A stretch of DNA of 37,543 bases from Thermoplasmata archaeon. GTDB lineage: Archaea > Thermoplasmatota > Thermoplasmata > Lutacidiplasmatales > UBA184. Of this stretch, positions 9,397 to 21,948 are shown in pieces. Position numbers and translations under genes: made by a program. Under the pieces are notes generated by a model. It saw nothing but the letters and a program-made list of their open reading frames with translations, had not been told where the DNA came from and ran no database searches. How positions within the stretch are numbered: the first letter of the stretch is position 1; the number at the start of each line of letters is the position of its first letter. Location of the stretch: assembly GCA_022749995.1 (NCBI GenBank), contig JAKIWO010000008.1, forward strand, positions 1 to 37,543. The letters run 5' to 3'.

Positions 9397-9432
9397 GCAC
9401 TCGGGGTGGAATGAGTGCTCCTCGTGAGCCGT

Positions 9433-9440
9433 GGGAGGGA
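9433..9440 (+). promoter_or_regulatory. Ribosome-binding site deciding the nuoA start
   Basis: GGGAGGGA ends 5 bases before the TTG at 9446. It can pair with the 3' end of 16S rRNA. This favours the TTG over the GTG at 9431, which would place the purine run inside the coding sequence. Confidence 0.45.
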
Positions 9441-9445
9441 CGTCC

Positions 9446-9808
9446 TTGGACAGCACGACCCTGTTCCTCGTTTTCGTCGTTCTCGCCGCGATTTTCGGCG
9501 TTGGTTCGGTCATCGCCAACCGCATGCTGGGCGCCAAGCCCCGCCGCGCCTACCTCCAGCCGCTGACCTACGAGTGCGGCCAGGAGCCCGAGGGGGAGGC
9601 GCAGATCGACTTTCCGACGCAACACTACACCTTCGCCATCGTGTTCGTAGCGGTGGACGTGATCGGGTTCCTCCTCGCGCTCTGGGGCCTGACCTTCCGT
9701 GCGCTGCGCACGAGCTGGGGCCCGACCCTCATCGCCTTCGGATTCACAGCCCTCGTGCTCGCCGGCATTTACTACGCCTTGAGCGGGGAACGGCGGTGGG
9801 TAGTGTGA
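9446..9808 (+). CDS. nuoA: Complex I subunit A (NuoA/FpoA-type)
   Basis: With the TTG start this gives 120 residues and three transmembrane helices, as expected for the family. The loop after helix 1 carries the signature [20 protein letters not shown], with the conserved Cys of the loop that is involved in the active/deactive transition in mitochondrial complex I. Helix 2 has the family [18 protein letters not shown]. NuoA is a small membrane subunit near the quinone cavity, beside NuoH and NuoJ. First gene of the operon; its stop overlaps the nuoB start by 4 bp. The GTG at 9431 would add five residues. Confidence 0.93.
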
Positions 9809-10404
9809 GCGCCGCCCCTACCGCGCTCCGAGCGGCGACGAACGCCGAGATGCCGCTGCCGATGATCACCGAGCCGGCGGTGTCGTTCGTCGAGATCGAG
9901 ACGCTACGGGCCCGGGAATTCGTCCCCGCGGCGAAGGAGGCGCTCGGCTCCATGCTCTCCGAGCAGGCCCAGGGGAAGCTGATCCGACCGATGTTCAACT
10001 GGGCCGGTCGGAACTCGCTGTTCCCGCTGCACTGGGGGCTCGCGTGCTGCGCCATCGAATTCGCGGCGGCGTTCGGAGCTCGCTGGGACGCCGAGCGGTT
10101 CGGCGTCGTACCCCGCTCTTCCCCCCGCCAGTGCGACCTGCTCATCGTCAACGGTACGGTCACGTGGAAGGTGGCGCACAAGCTGATCGCACTGTACGAG
10201 CAGATGCCGGAGCCGAAGTGGGTGATCGCGATGGGGAATTGCGCGACCGGCGGCGGCCCGTTCCGCACGGCCTACTCGGTGGTCCCCGGCGTCGACAAGC
10301 TGGTTCCCGTCGACGTGTACATTGCCGGTTGTCCCCCGCGGCCGGAGGCGCTGCTCGACGGCATTCTGCGGCTGGAGCAGCTCATCAAGGAGCGGAAGGA
10401 GTAG
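9805..10404 (+). CDS. nuoB: Complex I subunit B, carries cluster N2
   Basis: The GTG at 9805 overlaps the nuoA stop and gives 199 residues. All four N2 [4Fe-4S] ligands are visible: adjacent C81 and C82 in [10 protein letters not shown]146 in [11 protein letters not shown], and C176 in [12 protein letters not shown]. NuoB passes electrons from the peripheral clusters to quinone at the NuoB/NuoD interface. The N-terminal 40 residues, before the conserved core, are longer than in many homologues. ATG codons at 9850 and 9862 are alternative starts. The frame extends further upstream only as an overlap with nuoA. Confidence 0.95.
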
Positions 10405-10431: not shown

Positions 10432-10902
10432 GTGGAAGCAGAGGAGGTGGGCGCGCGGCTAAGGGAACGGTTCCCCGACGTGGTGGTCGAGCCGTTCCCC
10501 GGGACCGCCGGAAGGATCCGGTTCCCGGCCGCGAGGCTCATCGAGCTGCTCACCGAGGTACGGGATGGACTCGGCTTTGACCACCTGGGCCAGGTGGGCG
10601 CCATCGACTGGGTAGAGGAGCGGGAACTGTTCTACACCGTCTGGTCCGACCGGGCCAAGCAGTACCTGTTCCTCTCGACCCGGATCCCGGCGGGCGAGCC
10701 GCACCTCGAGAGCCTAACTCCCGTCTTCCCATCGGCCAACTGGCACGAGCGGGAGGCCTGCGAACTAGTCGGGATCACCTTCGACCACCATCCGGACCTG
10801 CGTCCGCTCCTGACGCCGACCGGCTACCAGTTCCACCCGCTACTGCGCTCCTTCCGGCTGCACGAGCCCGAGGAGCTCGAGGTGAAAGTTCGCGATGTCT
10901 GA
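10432..10902 (+). CDS. nuoC: Complex I subunit C (30-kDa type)
   Basis: The 156-residue product has the NuoC fold and the C-terminal signature ANWHEREACELVGITFDHHP. This motif family is also found in hydrogenase-related complexes. The C-terminal LLRSFRLHEPEELEVKV docks against NuoD in known structures. It starts with GTG at 10432, preceded by the purine run GGAGGGGGGG (10419-10428). Separate nuoC and nuoD genes are present, not the enterobacterial nuoCD fusion. Its last 8 bp overlap nuoD. Confidence 0.92.
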   Translation: MEAEEVGARLRERFPDVVVEPFPGTAGRIRFPAARLIELLTEVRDGLGFDHLGQVGAIDWVEERELFYTVWSDRAKQYLFLSTRIPAGEPHLESLTPVFPSANWHEREACELVGITFDHHPDLRPLLTPTGYQFHPLLRSFRLHEPEELEVKVRDV

Positions 10903-12040
10903 GATGTGGATCAACATGGGGCCCCAGCACCCCATGACGCACGGACTGTGGAACCTCCGGGTCAAGATCGACGGCGAGCTTGTCCTGGACGTCGACCCCG
11001 AGATGGGCTACCTCCACCGCGGGATCGAGAAGATCTCGGAGGACCGGCACTACAACGAGATCATCACGCTGATGGACCGTACCTGCTACGTCGCGGGAAT
11101 GGCCTGGGAACACCTGTTCATCCAGGCCGCCGAGCACGCGCTCCACATCCAGGTGCCGGAGCGCGCTCAGTGGATCCGGACGATGTCGGAGGAGTTCCAG
11201 CGGGTCGCCTCGCACCTCATGTGGTATGCCGCGTTCGTCCAGGATATCGGGCTGATGAGCCCGTTCCTGTACGGCATGCGGGACCGGGACCTGGTCCTTG
11301 ACCTGTTCCAGAGCTACACTGGCGGGCGGCTCACGTACGAGTACATGCGGGTGGGCGGTGTGCGCAACGACCTGCCGCCCGGGTTCACCGATCAGGCCCG
11401 CAAGGTGTGCGACTGGCTCAGCGACCGGTTCGTCGAGTACGACCGGCTCTGCCTCGGCTCCGACATCTTTCACCGACGGTGCGACAACTTGGGCGTCCTC
11501 AAGGCGAGCGAGTGCATCCGCTACGGTATCACCGGTCCGATGCTCCGATCGGCCGGCGTCGCGCGGGATCTCCGCAAGGACCGCCCGTACGCCGCCTACG
11601 GGCAGGTCGATTTCGAGGTGGCGGTCGCCGACGGTGCCGACGTGACGGGACGCTATCTGGTCCGGATGGAGGAGCTCCGGCAGTCCCTGCGCATCCTGCG
11701 CCAGACGCTCGATTGGTTGGACCGCAACGCGGGTCCGGTGATGGCCGAGAACGTGCCGCGGTGGATGGGAGCGCCGTACGCACCGGTCGGTCGCGAGGGC
11801 TACCTGCTCAAGCGGGAGTACCCCAAGGGGGTCGGGTTCTCCGCCATCGAGGAACCGCACGGGGAAGCGCTCGCGTACGTCGTGAACGAAGGAGGCGAGC
11901 ACCCGTACCGGGTGAAGCTCAAGTCCCCCGTCTTCGTGAACATCGCCGCGGCCCGTCAGTACTTGGTCGGCTACCGGGTCGCGGACATCCCGCCTATCAT
12001 GGGCAGTGTCGACGTCTGCGTAGGGGAGGTGGACCGCTAG
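10895..12040 (+). CDS. nuoD: Complex I subunit D (49-kDa type), quinone site
   Basis: The 381-residue product matches the family length. It begins almost directly with NMGPQHPMTHGLWNLRVKID, whose His residues line the quinone site. MDRTCYVAGMAWEHLF follows, with the Tyr equivalent to the one that hydrogen-bonds the quinone headgroup. The C-terminus, MGSVDVCVGEVDR, is the family ending. The [NiFe]-hydrogenase cysteine pairs are absent, so this is a quinone-reducing complex rather than an energy-converting hydrogenase. The ATG at 10895 overlaps nuoC by 8 bp. Confidence 0.96.
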   Translation: MSEMWINMGPQHPMTHGLWNLRVKIDGELVLDVDPEMGYLHRGIEKISEDRHYNEIITLMDRTCYVAGMAWEHLFIQAAEHALHIQVPERAQWIRTMSEEFQRVASHLMWYAAFVQDIGLMSPFLYGMRDRDLVLDLFQSYTGGRLTYEYMRVGGVRNDLPPGFTDQARKVCDWLSDRFVEYDRLCLGSDIFHRRCDNLGVLKASECIRYGITGPMLRSAGVARDLRKDRPYAAYGQVDFEVAVADGADVTGRYLVRMEELRQSLRILRQTLDWLDRNAGPVMAENVPRWMGAPYAPVGREGYLLKREYPKGVGFSAIEEPHGEALAYVVNEGGEHPYRVKLKSPVFVNIAAARQYLVGYRVADIPPIMGSVDVCVGEVDR

Positions 12041-12044
12041 TCCC

Positions 12045-13175
12045 ATGGCCCCGCTCTCGCTCTACGGCGTCTCCAACTCGCTGGTTTCCACCCTCCTGCT
12101 CCATCTCGCGGCCGTACTGCCGGCCCCGCTCAGCACGCTACTCTCGAACGGGGACCTCATCCTACTCCTCTCGGTCCTGGTGTTCTGCGGGACGTTGCTC
12201 GGGGCGAGCCTCCTCAACACGATCCTGCTGATCTGGTTCGAGCGGAAGATGCTCGGCCGGTTCATGGACCGCCGGGGGGCCATGCACGTGGGCTACGCGG
12301 GCCTCCTGCAGAACTTCGCCGACGGGCTCAAACTGTTCCGCAAGCACACCTTCCGTCCGCAGGACGCGGACCCGCTCGGCTTCTTCTCCGCCCCGACGGC
12401 GTACATGGTCGCCTCGATCGTGATGTTCGGCATCCTGCCGGTCTCGACCGGTTGGAGTGCCGGCACGCTGCCGCTGAGCCTACTGCTCGCCTTGGTGGTC
12501 TTCTCCTTTGCTCCGCTGTTCATCTTCCTCGGCGCGTGGTCATCGGCGAACAAGTACTCACTGATCGGAGGGATGCGCTCGGCCGCCCAGATGATTGCCT
12601 ACGAGGTCCCCATCCTGCTCGCGGTGGTGGCGGTGGTGCTTCTCTCGGGGAGCTTCGACCTCACGACGATCGTGAACGAGCAGCGCAACTACTGGTTCTG
12701 GGGGCCGCTGTTCCTTGCGCTCATCGTCTTCGTGGCGGGGATGCTCGCCGAGATGGAACGGATCCCCTTCGACCTGCCCGAAGCGGAAGCCGAGCTCGTG
12801 GAGGGCTGGAACACCGAGTTCGGTGGGATGCTCTTCGCCTTCTTCATGCTCGCCGACTACGCCCGGGCGCTCGTGGGCAGCTACCTCATCGTGCTGCTCT
12901 TCCTCGGCGGCTGGACGCTGCCGAGCTGGGTGCCCGCGCCGCTCACCAACTTCCCGTTGGCCGGCATCTTCTGGTTCCAAGTGAAGACCTACCTGGTCTT
13001 CGGGGTGTTCATCTGGATCCGGGCCTCGCTGCCGCGCGTCCGGACCGACCAGCTGCTGCGGGTGGGCTGGATGCGGATGATCCCGCTCTCGCTGCTCTCC
13101 ATCGTCCTCGCCGCCCTCGTCGTCCTCGCCAAGTGCCTGCCGGTCTTCGGCTGCCTGCCGTCGATGGGGAGCTAA
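12045..13175 (+). CDS. nuoH: Complex I subunit H, membrane quinone-channel subunit
   Basis: The product has 376 residues and about eight transmembrane helices. Family motifs include FERKMLGRFMDRRG at the start, FNLP-like IPFDLPEAEAELVEGWNTEF (acidic loop near the quinone channel) and VFIWIRASLPRVRTDQLLRVGW near the end. NuoH links the quinone cavity to the proton-pumping arm. The first 30 residues include an additional hydrophobic segment. It starts 4 bp after the nuoD stop. Confidence 0.95.
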   Translation: MAPLSLYGVSNSLVSTLLLHLAAVLPAPLSTLLSNGDLILLLSVLVFCGTLLGASLLNTILLIWFERKMLGRFMDRRGAMHVGYAGLLQNFADGLKLFRKHTFRPQDADPLGFFSAPTAYMVASIVMFGILPVSTGWSAGTLPLSLLLALVVFSFAPLFIFLGAWSSANKYSLIGGMRSAAQMIAYEVPILLAVVAVVLLSGSFDLTTIVNEQRNYWFWGPLFLALIVFVAGMLAEMERIPFDLPEAEAELVEGWNTEFGGMLFAFFMLADYARALVGSYLIVLLFLGGWTLPSWVPAPLTNFPLAGIFWFQVKTYLVFGVFIWIRASLPRVRTDQLLRVGWMRMIPLSLLSIVLAALVVLAKCLPVFGCLPSMGS

Positions 13176-13179
13176 GACC

Positions 13180-13950
13180 GTGTCCGAAAGCACGACCGCC
13201 GAATCGAACAGCTCGGTGCTCTGGGTCGCCAAGCCGCTCATCACCGCGGCGCGGCAGTTCGGCAAGAGCCTGCTGCGCCCCTCGACGATCGTCTACCCGT
13301 TCGAGCGGCTCGAGGACCCCAAGTTCCGCGGCGCGGTCCGGATCGCGCCGGGCAAGCCGATCGGCGTGGGCCAGGTTTGGGACAACTACCGCGGCGTCCA
13401 CGCGCTGAACATCGAGACCTGCATCTCGTGCAACCTGTGCGCGTTCAGCTGCCCGGACCTGTGCATCGACATGGTCACCGTCCCCGGCGGGGACCCCAAG
13501 CACCCGAAGAAGTGCCCCCAGATCGACTACGGGAAGTGCAGCTACTGCGGCTTCTGCTCCGACGCCTGCCCCGAGGGCTGCCTCAGCATGACCACCCGGT
13601 ACGAGCTCTCGGTATCCAAGCGCTCGGACATGATCTACTCCCCGCAGCGGCTCGAGGAGGTGTTCAAGGCCAAGCTGCCGATGAGCCCGATCCGGGTCGA
13701 GCGTCCGAAGAACGAGGACGCGATCCTGCTCGACCCGCCGCTCTGCATCGGCTGCAACGCCTGCGCCCGCGACTGCCCGACCAAGTGCATCACCATGGTC
13801 GACCTCCCCAAGCCCGTCGCCAAGGCCGGGGAGAAGCTTCCCAAGCGGATCTGGAAGGAGCCGGTCGTCAACGACTCCGATTGCGTCCGCTGCGGCACCT
13901 GCATCTCGGTGTGTCCTAAGGAGTGCCTCTTCTGGGGGACTCACCGGTGA
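13180..13950 (+). CDS. nuoI: Complex I subunit I with four [4Fe-4S] ferredoxin motifs
   Basis: The 256-residue protein has four CxxCxxCxxxC motifs: C81/84/87/91, C120/123/126/130, C189/192/195/199 and C235/238/241/245. Each continues as CPxxC, so each has a fifth Cys. Ordinary NuoI has two such motifs and about 160-180 residues. The first pair, with its N-terminal membrane-facing helix region (VWDNYRGVHALN), is the normal NuoI core. The second pair looks like an added or duplicated 2[4Fe-4S] ferredoxin domain. Since nuoEFG are missing, the extra domain could accept electrons from a soluble donor; that is inference. Start GTG at 13180; its stop overlaps nuoJ by 4 bp. Confidence 0.94.
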   Translation: MSESTTAESNSSVLWVAKPLITAARQFGKSLLRPSTIVYPFERLEDPKFRGAVRIAPGKPIGVGQVWDNYRGVHALNIETCISCNLCAFSCPDLCIDMVTVPGGDPKHPKKCPQIDYGKCSYCGFCSDACPEGCLSMTTRYELSVSKRSDMIYSPQRLEEVFKAKLPMSPIRVERPKNEDAILLDPPLCIGCNACARDCPTKCITMVDLPKPVAKAGEKLPKRIWKEPVVNDSDCVRCGTCISVCPKECLFWGTHR

Positions 13951-14441
13951 GCCCGGAGGGACTCGCGTTTCTCGCCCTCGGGGCGGTCGCCGTAATCACG
14001 GCGCTCGCCGCGCTGCTCGTGCGCGAGCTGGTCCACACGATCATGTGGATCGCGTCGTTCTTCGTGGCACTCTCCGGCCTGTACTTCCTGCTCCAGGCGA
14101 GCTTCCTCGGGGTGCTGCAGCTGGGGGTCTACGCCGGCGCCGTGACCATCCTGTTGCTGTTCGGGATCATGGTCACCCGCCGACGGATCTTCTCCCGCGA
14201 GGCCGCCACGGGTCTTTCGCTCACGTCGCTCTTCCTCGCGCTGCTGGTCATCGTGCTGCTCGCCGCCGTAGCCTCCGACCTGGCCGGCGCCTCGAACTCC
14301 ACGACCATCCACAGCTACGCCGTGGTCGACCTCTCGAGCGCGCTGTTCGGACCGTACGGCGGCTGGCTGCTCCTGCTCGGCCTGGTCATGCTCTCTGCCC
14401 TCTCGGGCGCCATCTACCTGGTCCGGGAGGGGCGCGAGTGA
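13947..14441 (+). CDS. nuoJ: Complex I subunit J
   Basis: From the GTG at 13947, which overlaps the nuoI stop (GTGA), this encodes 164 residues with five transmembrane helices. The family stretch LQASFLGVLQLGVYAGAVTI includes helix 3 with its pi-bulge region, known to link quinone chemistry to the proton path. The frame extends eight codons upstream into nuoI, which is not needed. Its stop overlaps nuoK by 4 bp. Confidence 0.92.
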   Translation: MSPEGLAFLALGAVAVITALAALLVRELVHTIMWIASFFVALSGLYFLLQASFLGVLQLGVYAGAVTILLLFGIMVTRRRIFSREAATGLSLTSLFLALLVIVLLAAVASDLAGASNSTTIHSYAVVDLSSALFGPYGGWLLLLGLVMLSALSGAIYLVREGRE

Positions 14442-14761
14442 GCGACCCGATCACCACCGCCAGCTTCCTCGGGCTCTCCGGTGCGCTCCTCGGGATCGGC
14501 CTCTTCGGCATCCTGACCCGCCGCAACTTCATCCTGCTGCTGATCGCCATCGAGATCGCGATCAACGCGGCGGTGCTCAACTTCGTCTACTTCGCCGCCT
14601 TCGCCTCCACTCCCGCCAGCGGGCTCAACGGCCAATCCGCCGCCGTGGTGCTCGTGGGCCTCGCCGCCACCGAGATCGCGGTGGGGCTCGCCATCGTGCT
14701 GGCGCTCAACCGACTCCGCGGCTCGATCAACGTGACCGAGGCCACGAGCCTGCGGCTCTAG
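14438..14761 (+). CDS. nuoK: Complex I subunit K
   Basis: From the GTG at 14438 this gives 107 residues, close to the usual 100, with three helices. ILLLIAIEIAINAAVLNFVY contains the conserved membrane glutamate of helix 2, and VLVGLAATEIAVGLAIVLAL the second glutamate in helix 3. Both belong to the proton-translocation path. The gene overlaps nuoJ by 4 bp. It lies inside a longer open frame starting at 14045, which upstream of 14438 is only nuoJ in another frame. Confidence 0.93.
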   Translation: MSDPITTASFLGLSGALLGIGLFGILTRRNFILLLIAIEIAINAAVLNFVYFAAFASTPASGLNGQSAAVVLVGLAATEIAVGLAIVLALNRLRGSINVTEATSLRL

Positions 14762-14770
14762 GAGGCGACG

Positions 14771-16756
14771 ATGTGGCAAGCGACCTATCTGTTCGACTGG
14801 GCGTTCCTCCTACCCCTCCTACCGGCGCTCTCCTTCGTGATCGTGGGTCTGCTCGGCCCGCGGCTCAAGCGGCTCGAGCACGGGGGCTGGGTGGCGGTCG
14901 GGTTCGGCTTCGCCACGATGGTCATCGGCGTGTGGATCGCCGTCGAGGAGATGCTCTCGAGCGGCGGCTACACCGACCAGCAGTACACCTGGTTCTCGAT
15001 CCCGGGGAACGGTACGGGCACCTTCCCCAACGGGTTCTCGCTGGTCGTGGGAACGCTCGTGGACCCGATCTCAGCGCTGATGCTCATCGTTGTCACCGTC
15101 GTCGGCTTCCTGGTTCTCCTCTACTCGATAGGCTACATGCACCACGACGGGGGACTGCCCCGGTACTACGCGGAGCTCTCGCTGTTCCTGGCTGCGATGA
15201 ACGGCCTCGTCCTGTCCGATAACCTGCTCGAGTTCTTCCTGTTCTGGGAGTTGGTCGGCGTCTGCTCGTACTTCCTGATCGGATTCTACTACGAGAAACC
15301 GAGCGCGGCTAGCGCCGCGAAGGAGGCGTTCCTCGTCACCCGGGTCGGGGACATCCTGTTCCTGCTCGGCATCTTCGTGTACTTCGCCACGTACGCCACC
15401 AGCGGGAGCGCGGGCGGCTGGGCGGCCAACGGCTTCCCGTTCGTCCAGGGGAACCAGCCGTTCCTCGCCGGAGCGATGGGGGGCCACTCGACCACCCTTA
15501 CGATCGCGGGCCTCCTCATCCTCGGGGGAGCCGCCGGAAAATCCGCCCAGTTCCCACTCCACGTCTGGCTACCGGACGCGATGGAAGGCCCCACCACGGT
15601 GAGCGCGCTCATCCACGCCGCCACGATGGTCGCCGCCGGCGTCTACCTCCTCGCCGTCGCCTCGCTGTTCCTCGGTTTCACGCCGGCCGACCAGCTGGCG
15701 ATCGTGGCCATCGGCGGGTTCACGAGCTTCTTCGCCGCGACGATGGCGCTGGTGAACACGGACATCAAGCGGGTGATCGCCTACTCCACGATCTCCCAGC
15801 TCGGCTACATGGTGCTCGCCGTCGGCGCCGGCTTTGCCATGGTGGGTCTCTACCACCTCTTCACCCACGCGTTCTTCAAGGCGCTCCTGTTCCTCGCCGC
15901 CGGTTCGGTCATCCACGCAGTCGGCACGCAGGACCTGTTCAAGATGGGCGGGCTCGGCAAGTCGATGCGGATCACCGGCTTCGCGTTCCTCGTCGGGGGT
16001 CTCTCGCTCTCCGGCATCGTCCCGTTCGCCGGATTCTGGAGCAAGGACGACCTGCTCGCGTCGGTGTACGGCACGCTCGCGACGCACCCGGTGTACTGGC
16101 CGTTCTTCCTGATGGCGCTCGCGACCGTCTTCCTCACGGCCTACTACATCTTCCGGGCGTTCTTCCTCGCCTTCTCCGGCCCGGCATCGAGGGACCCGAC
16201 GCTGCCGACCGCGCACGAAGCCTCCTGGGTGATGACCGGACCGCTGCTCGCCTTGAGCGGCCTCGCGATGGGCGCTGGTCTTCTGCCGTTCATTCCGGCC
16301 TTCGCCAGCCTGCTGCCCGGCGCCGGTATCCCCCCGCACTACGGCCTGAGCGAGCTCGCCCTCTCGGGGATCTCCTTGGGACTTGCGGCCGGCGGCATCG
16401 GACTCGCGTATTCCCTGTGGGGGAACGGGAAGGTCTACACGGCCGCGCCCAATTCGGCGCTGGGCCCCGTCCGCGCGCTGCTCCTTCGCCGGTATTACTT
16501 CAAGGACGCCTACGACGCGATCGGCCTGCGCGGTCTCTACGGGCTCTCCCGCGCCGCCGACTTCGTCGAACGGTACATGATCGATGGGACGGTGCACGGG
16601 CTCGAGCGGGCCTTCGGGGGCCTCTCCAACCGGCTGCGGCATATCGAGAGCGGGGTGGTGCTCGACTACGCGGCCTTCCTCGTTTCGGGGCTCCTATTCC
16701 TGCTGCTGTTCCTACTCGTCATCGCCCCCTGGCTCGTCAGCACGGGAGGGATCTAG
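14771..16756 (+). CDS. nuoL: Complex I subunit L, antiporter-like
   Basis: The 661-residue product has about 16 membrane helices. LFWELVGVCSYFLIGFYYEK carries the helix-5 glutamate. AGKSAQFPLHVWLPDAMEGP carries the helix-7 lysine, followed by PTTVSALIHAATMVAAGVYL. KRVIAYSTISQLGYM covers a further channel region. The C-terminus has a long segment (RYYFKDAYDAIGLRGLYGLS and beyond) for the lateral helix and a final anchor, LLFLLLFLLVIAPWL. NuoL is the distal proton channel. GGAGGCG (14761-14767) sits 3 bases before the ATG at 14771. Confidence 0.96.
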   Translation: MWQATYLFDWAFLLPLLPALSFVIVGLLGPRLKRLEHGGWVAVGFGFATMVIGVWIAVEEMLSSGGYTDQQYTWFSIPGNGTGTFPNGFSLVVGTLVDPISALMLIVVTVVGFLVLLYSIGYMHHDGGLPRYYAELSLFLAAMNGLVLSDNLLEFFLFWELVGVCSYFLIGFYYEKPSAASAAKEAFLVTRVGDILFLLGIFVYFATYATSGSAGGWAANGFPFVQGNQPFLAGAMGGHSTTLTIAGLLILGGAAGKSAQFPLHVWLPDAMEGPTTVSALIHAATMVAAGVYLLAVASLFLGFTPADQLAIVAIGGFTSFFAATMALVNTDIKRVIAYSTISQLGYMVLAVGAGFAMVGLYHLFTHAFFKALLFLAAGSVIHAVGTQDLFKMGGLGKSMRITGFAFLVGGLSLSGIVPFAGFWSKDDLLASVYGTLATHPVYWPFFLMALATVFLTAYYIFRAFFLAFSGPASRDPTLPTAHEASWVMTGPLLALSGLAMGAGLLPFIPAFASLLPGAGIPPHYGLSELALSGISLGLAAGGIGLAYSLWGNGKVYTAAPNSALGPVRALLLRRYYFKDAYDAIGLRGLYGLSRAADFVERYMIDGTVHGLERAFGGLSNRLRHIESGVVLDYAAFLVSGLLFLLLFLLVIAPWLVSTGGI

Positions 16757-16762
16757 GCGCCC

Positions 16763-18229
16763 ATGTTCCCGGCCCTCTCCTTCCTGCTGCTCACGCTCCT
16801 CGTGGGCACCGTCCTCACGTTCCTGTCCGGCCGGTGGGCGCGGTGGGTGGCGCTCGGCAGCTCGATGCTCTTCCTCCTCGAGGTGTCCGGCCTCCTCTCT
16901 GGGTTCAGCTGGCCCGGGGTCAGCGCCTCGGGAGTGCCGCAGTACGCGTACGCGGAGAGCTACCCGTGGATCTCGCTGCCCTGGCTGCACATCTCCTACA
17001 CGGTCGGCGTGGACGGCATCTCGCTCCCGCTGCTGCTCCTGACGGCGATCCTCCAGCTGGTCACCGTCCTCTACTCCTTCGACGAGCGCCGGCAGCCGGC
17101 CGCCTACTTCGGGCTCGTCCTGCTCACCTGCCTGGGCTGCGCCGGCGTGTTCCTCGCGCTGGATGTACTGCTGTTCTTCCTGTTCTGGGAGCTCGTCCTC
17201 ATCCCGATGTTCTTCCTCATCGGGTACTGGGGCGGGCTGCGCCGCCGGTATGCGGCGCTCAAGTTTTTCGTCTACACCCACGTCGGCAGCATCGTCATGC
17301 TGGTGGCGCTGCTCGTCACCGCGTTCTACTCCCACGCCCCCAGCTTCGACTTCGCGGGGATGTACGTCCCCGCCCAGGCGCTGGGGGTCACGACGCAGGC
17401 GCTGCTGTTCGCCGCGATGCTCTTCGGTTTCGGGATCAAGTTCCCGATCGTCCCGTTCCACACCTGGCTCCCGGACGCCCACGTCGAGGCGCCCACCGGC
17501 GGTTCCGTGCTCCTCGCGGGACTGCTGCTCAAGCTCGGGGGGTACGGGCTCATCCGTTGGGGGCTCGAACTGTTGCCGACGGGCCTGGTCCACGACCAGC
17601 CGCTGCTCTACGCCGTCGCGTTCGCCTCGATCATCTGGGGCTCGGTCATTGCGCTCGCCCAACGGGACCTGAAACGGCTCGTCGCATACTCGTCGATCAA
17701 CCACATGGGGATCGTGCTGCTCGCGATCGCCGTCGACTCGAACTTGGGGCTGCTCGCCGCGGTGCTCCTCATGTTCGCCCACGGGGTCGTGAGCGCGCTG
17801 CTGTTCATGGTCTCGGGCAGCATGCACCACACCTTCGGCAGCCGGGACATCGCCACGGTGCACGGGATCACGCCGCGCACGCCGGTGCTCTCGACGATGA
17901 TGATGGTCGGAGCCCTCGCCTCGCTCGGCCTGCCCGCGCTCATCAGCTTCCCGGCGGAGTTCAGCGCGCTGCTCGCCACCTGGGACCGTCTGGGCTACTG
18001 GGTGCTGGTGCCGCTGCTCCTGCTCGTCGTCACCGCGGCGTTCTACCTGTGGATGATGCAGCGGGTGCTCTTCGGCCCGACCGAGGGGGTGCCGGAGACC
18101 GCTCGCGACCTGCCCTGGCCCGAGGCGCTCGCGATGTCGATGCTCGTGGCCCTGACCGTGCTCTACGGGATCCTGCCGGGTCTGCTGACGAACGTGATCA
18201 TCCACTCACCGGTCTACGGACTGCCGTAA
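16763..18229 (+). CDS. nuoM: Complex I subunit M, antiporter-like
   Basis: The product has 488 residues and about 14 helices. LFFLFWELVLIPMFFLIGYW has the channel glutamate. KFPIVPFHTWLPDAHVEAPT and GGSVLLAGLLLKLGGYGLIR are the classic NuoM signatures with channel lysines and the broken helix. LKRLVAYSSINHMGIVLLAI follows. It forms the second proton channel of the membrane arm. The ATG at 16763 lies 6 bp after nuoL. Confidence 0.96.
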   Translation: MFPALSFLLLTLLVGTVLTFLSGRWARWVALGSSMLFLLEVSGLLSGFSWPGVSASGVPQYAYAESYPWISLPWLHISYTVGVDGISLPLLLLTAILQLVTVLYSFDERRQPAAYFGLVLLTCLGCAGVFLALDVLLFFLFWELVLIPMFFLIGYWGGLRRRYAALKFFVYTHVGSIVMLVALLVTAFYSHAPSFDFAGMYVPAQALGVTTQALLFAAMLFGFGIKFPIVPFHTWLPDAHVEAPTGGSVLLAGLLLKLGGYGLIRWGLELLPTGLVHDQPLLYAVAFASIIWGSVIALAQRDLKRLVAYSSINHMGIVLLAIAVDSNLGLLAAVLLMFAHGVVSALLFMVSGSMHHTFGSRDIATVHGITPRTPVLSTMMMVGALASLGLPALISFPAEFSALLATWDRLGYWVLVPLLLLVVTAAFYLWMMQRVLFGPTEGVPETARDLPWPEALAMSMLVALTVLYGILPGLLTNVIIHSPVYGLP

Positions 18230-18242
18230 CGGAGGGATCGCC

Positions 18243-19796
18243 GTGGACCTTGGAACACTGATCCCTCAATTCCTCCCCGAGTTCGTCCTGCTCGGGGCGG
18301 GACTGCTCATCCTGCTCGGGGAACGGGTCGGGCTCGAGCGTCGGGAGTACTTTGGCGCGCTTTCCCTCGCCGGCATGCTGCTCGCCTTCCTGCTCGTGGC
18401 GGCCGACCTCGGCACCCCCGGGATGGGCGGATTGCGGGGCGTCTCGGCGGGCCAGGTCGACGGGGCGGCCATCCCCGGGGCGCTCTACGGGTTCAGCTCG
18501 CTCGGCCTGTGGTTCCAGGAGTTCTTCCTCCTCGCGGCCGGCTTGGTCGCGCTCGCCTTCCTCTCCCGTCCCTCGGTCGAGCGGGGCGCCGCCGTCTCCT
18601 ACGCGCTGCTGATCTTCGCGACGCTGGGGATGCTGCTCGTCACGCTGGCGGCGGACCTCGTCTACCTGCTGCTCGCCCTGGAGATCACCGCGATCTCGAG
18701 CTACCTCCTGGTCGGGTACACGCGCCGGGACCCGCGCGGCCTCGAGGCCGCGATGAAGTTCTACATCATCGGCGCGCTCTCCGCCGCGCTCTCCTTCTTC
18801 GGTGCGTCGCTGCTCTTCGGCGCCTACGGCACCACCAGCCTGTCGGTGATCGGGCACAGCTGGCCGTCGGGCTCCGGCGGTCTGGCCAGCGCCGGCTACG
18901 CGTTCCTCCTCGTGGGCCTCGGCTTCGAGGTGACCGCGGTGCCCTTTCACATGTGGGCGGTGGACGTCTACGACGGCGCCCCCGACGAGGTCTCCGCGTT
19001 CCTCGCAGGCGGGACCAAGAAGGTGGGACTGTTCGCCTTCGTGCTGCTGTTCACCGTCCCGCTGCTGCTCGTGGGCAGCCTCTCCTCGGCGACCGGCTCG
19101 GCCCGCGAGTCGATCCAGCTCTCGCTGGTCGTGCTCGCGCTGCTGACGATGACGCTCGGCAACCTGCTGGCGCTGCTGCAGCCGGAGATGAAGCGGCTGC
19201 TCGCCTACTCCTCGATCAGCCAGGCCGGATACATGCTGCTCGGCATCGCCGTCGGAACGGCGCCCGCGCTCACCGGTGCGTCGCTCCAGATCCTCGCGCA
19301 CGTGCTGCTCAAGACCGGAGCGTTCCTGGTCGTGGCGGCGGTCTCCGCGCTCGGCATCGGGCCGCTCGTGGCCGACTGGCGGGGACTGGGGGTGCGGCGA
19401 CCGTACCTCTCCGCCGCGTTCGCGCTGTTCCTGCTCGGGCTCGCGGGCATCCCGCTCACGGTCGGGTTCGTCTCCAAGTTCGTGCTGTTCTCCGCGCTCG
19501 TGCAGGCCGAGGGCTGGTTCTTGTGGCTCGCTGTGGCCGGCTTACTGAACAGCGCCCTCTCGGTCTTCTACTACGCCCGGATACTCAAGACGATGTACGT
19601 CGACAAGTCCCCCACGGCGGAGGAAACCGCACCCGCGCGGTCGGGGGAACCGCTGGGGGCCGATGGCCTCGGATGGGGGCGTGCCGGCGCCATCGCGCTG
19701 GCGGCCGTGGCGGTGGTCGCGCTCGGCGTGTATCCCCAGCCGGTGTTGGGCGCCCTCGGCACCGCCGCCCAGCACTTCCTGTCCCTCGGTCTGTAG
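18243..19796 (+). CDS. nuoN: Complex I subunit N, antiporter-like
   Basis: The product has 517 residues and about 14 helices. VYLLLALEITAISSYLLVGY holds the channel glutamate, VPFHMWAVDVYDGAPDEVSA is the NuoN version of the helix-7/8 region, and GGTKKVGLFAF provides the lysines. LLAYSSISQAGYMLLGIAVG follows. The GTG at 18243 is preceded by GGAGGG (18231-18236). This is the last subunit gene; none of nuoE, nuoF, nuoG or an fpoF-like gene follows. Confidence 0.95.
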   Translation: MDLGTLIPQFLPEFVLLGAGLLILLGERVGLERREYFGALSLAGMLLAFLLVAADLGTPGMGGLRGVSAGQVDGAAIPGALYGFSSLGLWFQEFFLLAAGLVALAFLSRPSVERGAAVSYALLIFATLGMLLVTLAADLVYLLLALEITAISSYLLVGYTRRDPRGLEAAMKFYIIGALSAALSFFGASLLFGAYGTTSLSVIGHSWPSGSGGLASAGYAFLLVGLGFEVTAVPFHMWAVDVYDGAPDEVSAFLAGGTKKVGLFAFVLLFTVPLLLVGSLSSATGSARESIQLSLVVLALLTMTLGNLLALLQPEMKRLLAYSSISQAGYMLLGIAVGTAPALTGASLQILAHVLLKTGAFLVVAAVSALGIGPLVADWRGLGVRRPYLSAAFALFLLGLAGIPLTVGFVSKFVLFSALVQAEGWFLWLAVAGLLNSALSVFYYARILKTMYVDKSPTAEETAPARSGEPLGADGLGWGRAGAIALAAVAVVALGVYPQPVLGALGTAAQHFLSLGL

Positions 19797-19798
19797 CG

Positions 19799-20902
19799 AT
19801 GGAGCGGTTCGACGTCGTCGTCGTAGGAGCCGGCCCCGCCGGGAGCAGCGCCGCCCGGTTTGCGGCCGAGGGCGGAGCGCGTACCTTGCTCGTCGACCGG
19901 CGGCCCGAGCTCGGAGAGCCGGTGCAGTGCGGGGAGTTCCTGCCGAGCCCCGAGGAGCTCGCCGATCTGCTGCCGGCGCGCGAGGCGATCGCTCGCGCCT
20001 ACTGGATCCCGCCCGAGACGGTACTACGGCGGACCCGACGGATGGTCTGCGTCGCGCCGTCCGGCCGCCGCTTCGAGTTCCCGCTCGACGGCGTTTCGGT
20101 GAGTCGACGCGCGTTCGACAAGCGCCTCGCGCTCACCGCCGAAGGGGCGGGCGCTGAACTTCGCTTCCCGGCCGGTGTGACCGGGTGCGCCGCGGACCGG
20201 GTGCGATTCGCCGACGGGAGCGAGGCCGGTTGCCGGGTCATCGTCGGGGCGGACGGCCCGATCTCTACGGTGGGGCGATCCTTCGGGTTTCGGCCGCGCC
20301 GGGACATGTACCGCATGATCACGGCGAACTGCGAGGGAGAGTTCCCCGACGAGATCGCACTCCACTTCGGCCGGGGCGCTCCGGGCGGCTACGCCTGGGT
20401 GATCCCCAAGAGCCGGGAGGCCAACGTGGGGCTCGGCGTCTCGCACCTCCCCCCCGGCACGACCCTCTCCCGTCTCCTGGACCGGTTCACCGACGGCGCT
20501 GGTTTGGAGCGCGCCACGGAGCGGACCCGCTGGTGGGTCCCCATCGGCCCCCCTCCGGCGAGCGCGGTCCGTGGCCCGGCACTGTTCGTCGGCGACGCGG
20601 CCAACCTCGTCATGGCCACGAACGGCGGTGGAATACCCACGGCGATGCTCTCCGGGTACGATGCGGGCCAGGTGGCCGCCGACCACGTGCGGGAGGGGCT
20701 GCCGCTCACCGAGTACGACACCCGTTGGCGCTCCCGAATGGCGGAGCCGCTCGAACGTGGCTATCGGATCAAGCGGTTCGGCGACCGGTTCGCCGCGCGC
20801 GACGCGTGGTTGTCGCTCGGGATGCGCTACCTGGGCGCCCGCGGCCTCGAGGAGATGATGCGACTGCGCTGGCCGGGCCGTCTCGCCGGAGTGGCCGCAT
20901 GA
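19799..20902 (+). CDS. Geranylgeranyl-reductase family flavoprotein
   Basis: The 367-residue protein begins MERFDVVVVGAGPAGSSAAR, a GxGxxG Rossmann site for FAD. GEPVQCGEFLP is the Cys-containing loop of the family, GRGAPGGYAWVIPK is the YxWxFP-type substrate motif, and GDAANLVMATNGGGI is the second FAD motif. Such enzymes saturate isoprenoid chains of archaeal lipids, or of menaquinone (MenJ-like). It starts 2 bp after the nuoN stop and overlaps the polyprenyl synthase by 4 bp. This placement points to the quinone of the respiratory chain as substrate, though lipid saturation is equally possible chemically. The ATG at 19799 is the first codon before the Rossmann strand. Confidence 0.85.
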   Translation: MERFDVVVVGAGPAGSSAARFAAEGGARTLLVDRRPELGEPVQCGEFLPSPEELADLLPAREAIARAYWIPPETVLRRTRRMVCVAPSGRRFEFPLDGVSVSRRAFDKRLALTAEGAGAELRFPAGVTGCAADRVRFADGSEAGCRVIVGADGPISTVGRSFGFRPRRDMYRMITANCEGEFPDEIALHFGRGAPGGYAWVIPKSREANVGLGVSHLPPGTTLSRLLDRFTDGAGLERATERTRWWVPIGPPPASAVRGPALFVGDAANLVMATNGGGIPTAMLSGYDAGQVAADHVREGLPLTEYDTRWRSRMAEPLERGYRIKRFGDRFAARDAWLSLGMRYLGARGLEEMMRLRWPGRLAGVAA

Positions 20903-21948
20903 GCAGCCCATCGACCGGGACCGAGCGGCCGCTCGAGGCGCTCGTGGGCCGGAGCATCGGTGCCGAGCTGCCCAGCGAGCTCGAAGAGCTGCTGCCCCCG
21001 CTGATGCAGGACCTACGGGAGATCGATGCACGCCTCGAGCAAGTGCTCCAGGCCACGTACCCTCAGCTCACCCAAGCCGCGCGGTACGCCTGCCAGGGCG
21101 GCGGGAAGCGCATCCGACCGCTCCTCATGGCCGTCGCGCTGCGCGCGCTCGGTGCGGACTCGACCCGGTCGGTCCATTCGCTGGCGGCGGCCTTCCAGCT
21201 CATCCACACTGCGACGCTCGTGCACGACGATGTCATCGACCACGCCGAGTTGCGGCGCGGCCGGGCCTCCGTCCCGCGCGCCTTCGGGTTGCCGGTCGCG
21301 ATCGTCACGGGGGACTACTTGTTCGTTCGGGCGTTCGAGCTCGCTGCCGAATATCCGCGGGGCATCATCCTGCGCTGCGGCGAGGCGTGCGCCGACCTGG
21401 CGGAAGGAGAGGTGCTCGAGTCGGGCGCCCGCTTTGACCTGACCACGGGGAGGGCCCACTACTTCCGGGTGGTCGAGCGCAAGACCGCGGCGATCGTCTC
21501 CGCGGCCCTCGCCTCGGTGGCCGAGATCGGGGGCGGCGGTCCCCCGGCCGTGGATGCCTATGCGGAGTACGGTCGCTCCGTGGGCATCGCGTTCCAGCTG
21601 CGCGACGATGTGCTCGACCTGTACGGGGACCCGGACTTGCTGGGCAAGCCGCTGTTCTCCGACCTCCGAGAGGGGAACCCGACGCTCGTGGCGCTGGAGG
21701 CGCACGCCGCGCTCTCGGGGCCCGAGAAGGGGGAGTTCGAACGGCTCTTCGCGATCCGGCGGAAGCAGTCTGGTGATCTGCTCAGGCTCAAAGAGCTGAC
21801 CGAGCGCGCCGGCGCCCCCGAGCGGGTCGGAGAGGAGGCGCGCCGCTGGGCGGAGCGTGCCGTCCATGCCTTGACCCCGATTCCCCCGGGACCGTACCGT
21901 TCCTTGCTCGAGCACCTAGCTCGTGCCGCCGTCGCCCGCCGGTTCTAG
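20899..21948 (+). CDS. Polyprenyl diphosphate synthase, probably long-chain
   Basis: The 349-residue trans-prenyltransferase has GGGKRIRPLL (about 67-76), first aspartate-rich motif D110-D111-V-I-D114, RRGRASVP after it, GDYLFVRAF, and second motif D236-D237-V-L-D240. It extends an allylic diphosphate with isopentenyl diphosphate using Mg2+. Five residues before the first motif is Ala105 (LIHTATLVHDD). In this family a bulky residue there stops at C20, while small residues go with longer chains as in quinone side-chain synthases. This suggests a C30-C40 product rather than the C20 lipid precursor. A polar N-terminal extension of about 35 residues is present. The ATG overlaps the reductase stop (ATGA). 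Confidence 0.88.
   Translation: MSSPSTGTERPLEALVGRSIGAELPSELEELLPPLMQDLREIDARLEQVLQATYPQLTQAARYACQGGGKRIRPLLMAVALRALGADSTRSVHSLAAAFQLIHTATLVHDDVIDHAELRRGRASVPRAFGLPVAIVTGDYLFVRAFELAAEYPRGIILRCGEACADLAEGEVLESGARFDLTTGRAHYFRVVERKTAAIVSAALASVAEIGGGGPPAVDAYAEYGRSVGIAFQLRDDVLDLYGDPDLLGKPLFSDLREGNPTLVALEAHAALSGPEKGEFERLFAIRRKQSGDLLRLKELTERAGAPERVGEEARRWAERAVHALTPIPPGPYRSLLEHLARAAVARRF

Follow-up and report, generated by a model that had tools for sequence, protein, structure and literature searches.

The NDH-1 complex of cyanobacteria and chloroplasts is a headless complex I which is fed by ferredoxin, its NdhI subunit harbouring two clusters and ferredoxin docking via NdhS. Headless gene sets have also been described in archaea. 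The Fpo-like complex of the Methanomassiliicoccales is composed of FpoABCDHIJKLMN and is devoid of FpoF and FpoO (PMC4153887), and the archaeal-type NuoABCDHIJKLMN of the Thermoplasmatales constitutes a headless gene set as well (PMC3750248). Ferredoxin-dependent NDH-1 is cited in PMC11238625, and according to the same article no donor protein shared by the bacteria possessing the 11-subunit form emerged from an earlier search. The route by which electrons enter headless complex I is thus an open question, for which a fused and conserved two-cluster extension of one of its subunits offers a concrete and removable candidate input site. A survey of archaeal gene fusions mentions, in its passages on complex I, B-C and B-C-D fusions only (PMC11237513), and in the open-access literature searched we found no description of a NuoI with four or six clusters.

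The window, i.e. the whole stretch of 37,543 nucleotides analysed here, stems from an archaeon of the Lutacidiplasmatales, which are described as aerobic or facultatively anaerobic (PMC9287336). It comprises the complete set nuoABCDHIJKLMN within one operon that contains no nuoEFG, and hence the genes of an 11-subunit (headless) complex I (Table 1). The operon ends at nuoN without an NADH module or an fpoF-like gene, just as an earlier note on this DNA had stated. The cysteine motifs LACC, MGNC and AGCPP are visible in the sequence of NuoB, the carrier of N2. The nuoJ gene has an in-frame GTG at 13947, which overlaps the stop codon of nuoI, while the list of open reading frames places its start at 13923. 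A group 4 [NiFe] hydrogenase was ruled out, since reading of the NuoD sequence revealed none of the nickel-binding CxxC motifs and NuoD scores above the NuoD equivalog threshold. Two bases past the stop codon of nuoN a gene for a GGR-family flavoprotein begins, which is followed by a polyprenyl synthase gene (19799-21948). Among the 60 family loci which extend far enough, 53 show the order nuoN-GGR, the polyprenyl synthase being most often next, and the two genes may act on quinone or lipid side chains in connection with complex I.

Table 1. Genes of the nuo operon together with the motifs and domains of NuoI (coordinates refer to the window).
Feature	Position	Strand	Description	Model match
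nuoA	9431..9808	+	gene order conserved	NCBIfam NuoA 3.8e-12, below cut-off
nuoB	9850..10404	+		NCBIfam NuoB 1.6e-64, above cut-off
nuoC	10432..10902	+		TIGR01961 2.4e-25, below cut-off
nuoD	10895..12040	+	quinone type	NF004739 NuoD equivalog 415.5 bits, cut-off 360
nuoH	12045..13175	+		NuoH models to 1e-88, just below cut-off
nuoI	13180..13950	+	256 aa, GTG start, four [4Fe-4S] motifs	TIGR01971 120.9 bits, cut-off 113.05
NuoI domain 1	13411..13599	+	residues 78-140, canonical NuoI dicluster domain	TIGR01971 over residues 68-158
NuoI motif 1	13420-13464	+	C81ISCNLCAFSCPDLC95, domain 1
NuoI motif 2	13537-13581	+	C120SYCGFCSDACPEGC134, domain 1
NuoI domain 2	13735..13935	+	residues 186-252, extra C-terminal dicluster domain	Fer4_7 over residues 189-248
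NuoI motif 3	13744-13788	+	C189IGCNACARDCPTKC203, domain 2
NuoI motif 4	13882-13926	+	C235VRCGTCISVCPKEC249, domain 2
nuoJ	13947..14441	+		NuoJ model 3e-22, below cut-off
nuoK	14438..14761	+		NuoK models to 4.8e-21; NF004320 above cut-off
nuoL	14771..16756	+		NF005141 573.8 bits, cut-off 556
nuoM	16763..18229	+		TIGR01972 439 bits, above cut-off
nuoN	18243..19796	+	last complex I gene; conserved order	TIGR01770 280 bits, below cut-off

The whole NuoI protein passes the cut-off of the NuoI subfamily model TIGR01971. It departs, however, from the two [4Fe-4S] clusters which are the usual form of this subfamily, albeit no formal criterion of the model, as it displays four motifs of the type CxxCxxCxxxCPxxC arranged in two dicluster ferredoxin domains. 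The first of these domains is expected to be the site of N6a and N6b. The earlier note had claimed four ferredoxin motifs, and the sequence bears this out: none of the 20 motif cysteines varies in any of the 108 Lutacidiplasmatales rows, which correspond to 79 distinct sequences, so that the four-motif form is not due to chance. The extra CPxxC cysteine, which the note had emphasised for each motif, is indeed present in all four motifs and typical of the family. The 16 ligand-type cysteines never change in 37 diverse four-cluster sequences from across the class, whereas the fifth cysteine is near-invariant in motif 1 (C95) only and patchy in motifs 2-4 outside the window's family; we therefore dropped it as a class-wide ligand.

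Full-length NuoI matches were found in 35 of 37 family genomes including that of the window, with one genome yielding no match (G005) and another a partial one (G012). Mean pairwise identity amounts to 0.89 for domain 1 and 0.87 for domain 2, and dN/dS to about 0.02-0.14 and 0.05-0.09, respectively; these values indicate that domain 2, like domain 1, is under purifying selection. An artefact arising from a frameshift, the fusion of neighbouring genes or mis-assembly is refuted by this conservation and has next to no probability, as the gene is uninterrupted in all 79 distinct sequences, which stem from independent MAGs, and its dN/dS lies well below 1. In one genome two full-length four-cluster copies are present (G031:C24 and G031:C2), which are either paralogues or the result of a strain mixture.

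The four-cluster form is widespread in the class and not special to the operon of the window. The earlier note had proposed to look for this form in related genomes, and a class search detected NuoI relatives in 280 of 300 genomes. Located between nuoH and nuoJ, four-cluster NuoI occurs in 11 or more families of the class, mcrA-bearing methanogens included; where the gene was read within its operon, four motifs are present in f1, f8, f11, f16, f20, f22, f24, f29, f30, f32 and f33 and, outside the class, in f36 and f52. Among the genomes tested for mcrA, those of f8, f22, f29, f30, f32 and f33 carry the gene, while it is absent from those of f1, f5, f11, f16, f20 and f24. Judged from its sequence, the NuoI of these acid-soil archaea is predicted to bind twice the usual number of clusters, in a conserved form common to related methanogens. 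Two-motif NuoI is found in f10, f13, f14, f18, f19, f27, f31 and in one f24 genome, and six-motif NuoI in f5 (L041, L169) and f21 (L177, L178), one motif lacking a cysteine in L170, L172, L174 and f21. This series of two, four and six motifs in related families provides a natural comparison. A plasmid search serving as outside control returned 144 matching records, none of which covered more than 80% of the query. At six loci of f23, f25, f26 and f28 (L164, L166, L171, L175, L186, L187) a four-cluster NuoI-like gene was observed with nuoB alone detected nearby. One further genome (G038) contains a two-cluster NuoI near B-C-D as well as a truncated open reading frame which resembles the second pair and lies at a contig end before J-K-L-M-N (L032 5141-5371 and L031 6247-6798 loci); its NuoI-like genes probably belong to two different complexes.

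In a tree of NuoH, NuoI domain 1 and NuoD the four- and six-motif forms are grouped with f4 apart, yet the support of 35% for this grouping does not establish a single origin. The six-motif clade of f5 and f21 is supported at 100% and stands beside f16/f20 (100). A tree of the NuoI domains separates domain 2 only weakly from domain 1.

The earlier note had made its reading depend on nuoEFG or fpoF not being encoded elsewhere, and neither module was found in the genome of the window, a MAG of 1.6 Mb in 95 contigs which is 87% complete: it yields no match to PF01512, the family of NuoF used as genome-wide test for NuoEFG, and none to PF04432, used for the FpoF-type F420H2 module. In the 81 family genomes, that of the window among them, PF04432 is absent throughout, which leaves them without the FpoF-type subunit characteristic of an F420H2 dehydrogenase (Fpo). 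PF01512 occurs in a single one, adjoining a formate-dehydrogenase-like molybdopterin oxidoreductase that contains 2Fe-2S and Fer4 domains. NuoF and FpoF are, however, also absent from the two-cluster families f27, f31 and part of f19. Since these sister families possess headless complexes with two clusters, working without an input module does not depend on the second pair, which is therefore no required substitute for the missing module. Of the built-in input or docking module which the earlier note had seen in the second pair, a genuine, selected dicluster domain that is predicted to fold stands, its part as input site being putative. As a simple replacement of NuoEFG or FpoF the second pair was rejected, because the comparison of presence and absence did not hold cleanly.

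Two AlphaFold predictions of the single chain gave well-folded NuoI domains and an uncertain linker. In the one based on 37 sequences the block means of the pLDDT amount to about 73-91 in domain 2. The linker residues 167-174 fall below a pLDDT of 50, which, together with a pTM of 0.60, leaves the placement of domain 2 undefined. A Foldseek comparison with the PDB matched the NuoI and FwdF folds and found no template for the two-domain arrangement. We consider it improbable that the second pair lies off the electron path, where it would stabilise the tip of the arm or shield N6a at the position of NuoG, its clusters being structural or an electron reservoir. The poor prediction of the linker would be in line with such a role, as would the existence of two-cluster headless complexes lacking the second pair and the loss of a cysteine from one motif in several six-motif members, but the invariance of 16 out of 16 ligand cysteines in the four-cluster form seemingly exceeds any purely structural need.

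A place on the electron path could also be filled by an arm which, instead of free ferredoxin, docks a single dedicated donor protein, e.g. an OFOR, an electron-transfer flavoprotein, an Hdr-like protein or a dehydrogenase subunit. We regard this as unlikely; the donor may vary by lineage. Four-cluster NuoI is found in metabolically very different lineages, with and without mcrA, and 11-subunit complexes have been proposed as docking platforms for various donors (PMC11238625); in addition, a few four-cluster genomes also carry NuoF-like proteins. However, no conserved donor gene was found at the operon, the conserved neighbours of which are the GGR-family flavoprotein and the polyprenyl synthase.

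The explanation we prefer, and to which we assign about an even chance, is that the headless 11-subunit complex is fed by reduced ferredoxin with the second pair serving as extra dock and relay. 2-Oxoacid:ferredoxin oxidoreductases (OFOR) would reduce ferredoxin, which would dock on NuoI; the clusters of domain 2 would accept the electrons and hand them on to N6a, N6b, N2 and finally quinone, the flow to quinone driving proton pumping. The six-motif NuoI of sister families may extend this relay further. Ferredoxin input is favoured by the case of Methanomassiliicoccus luminyensis, whose headless Fpo is reported to oxidise reduced ferredoxin (PMC7374477), by two OFOR genes in the genome of the window and by small ferredoxin-like open reading frames therein. 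Ferredoxin is thus a plausible donor of the window's complex. OFOR occurs in 41 of 41 genomes of the family. The charge of domain 2 ranges from neutral to mildly positive (0 to +3), while that of two candidate ferredoxins is negative (-3 and -9). Against this explanation, the surroundings of the operon yielded no ferredoxin gene, and both Methanothrix Fpo and the NDH-1 of cyanobacteria are fed by ferredoxin although they lack a second cluster pair. More tentatively, NuoI of the Thermoplasmatota might form a polyferredoxin arm, extendable stepwise from two to four and six motifs, which acts as an input module replacing NuoEFG or FpoF in methanogens and aerobes alike.

Compared with known systems, the NuoI of the window resembles canonical NuoI (TIGR01971) over residues 68-158. 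The NuoI chains of solved complex I structures match it to about residue 172 only, and a profile search revealed no solved NuoI matching both cluster pairs. With the polyferredoxins FwdF and MvhB it shares tandem dicluster domains, the NCBIfam FwdF model spanning residues 75-249 at 45.8 bits, far below its cut-off of 375. Yet their domain arrangement does not superpose on that of the NuoI model (rmsd >20 Å, TM ≤0.25) and, unlike them, the gene of the window lies within a nuo operon. The representatives of f19, which we take to be Thermoplasmatales, possess a NuoI with two clusters in contrast to the four of the window. The archaeal-type complex of the Thermoplasmatales nevertheless has the same headless gene set (PMC3750248). 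The Methanomassiliicoccales Fpo-like complex likewise shares the 11 subunits and the absence of an input module (PMC4153887), and a four-cluster NuoI or FpoI lies between H and J in mcrA-bearing families of the class, a form which the FpoI of M. luminyensis may share. In contrast to the Methanomassiliicoccales, the genomes tested of the window's family are devoid of mcrA. Its NuoI further differs from the Methanomassiliicoccales Fpo-like form by the fifth cysteine in all four motifs and by a longer N-terminal region, and from that of f8 by a shorter linker and a longer spacer between motifs 3 and 4.
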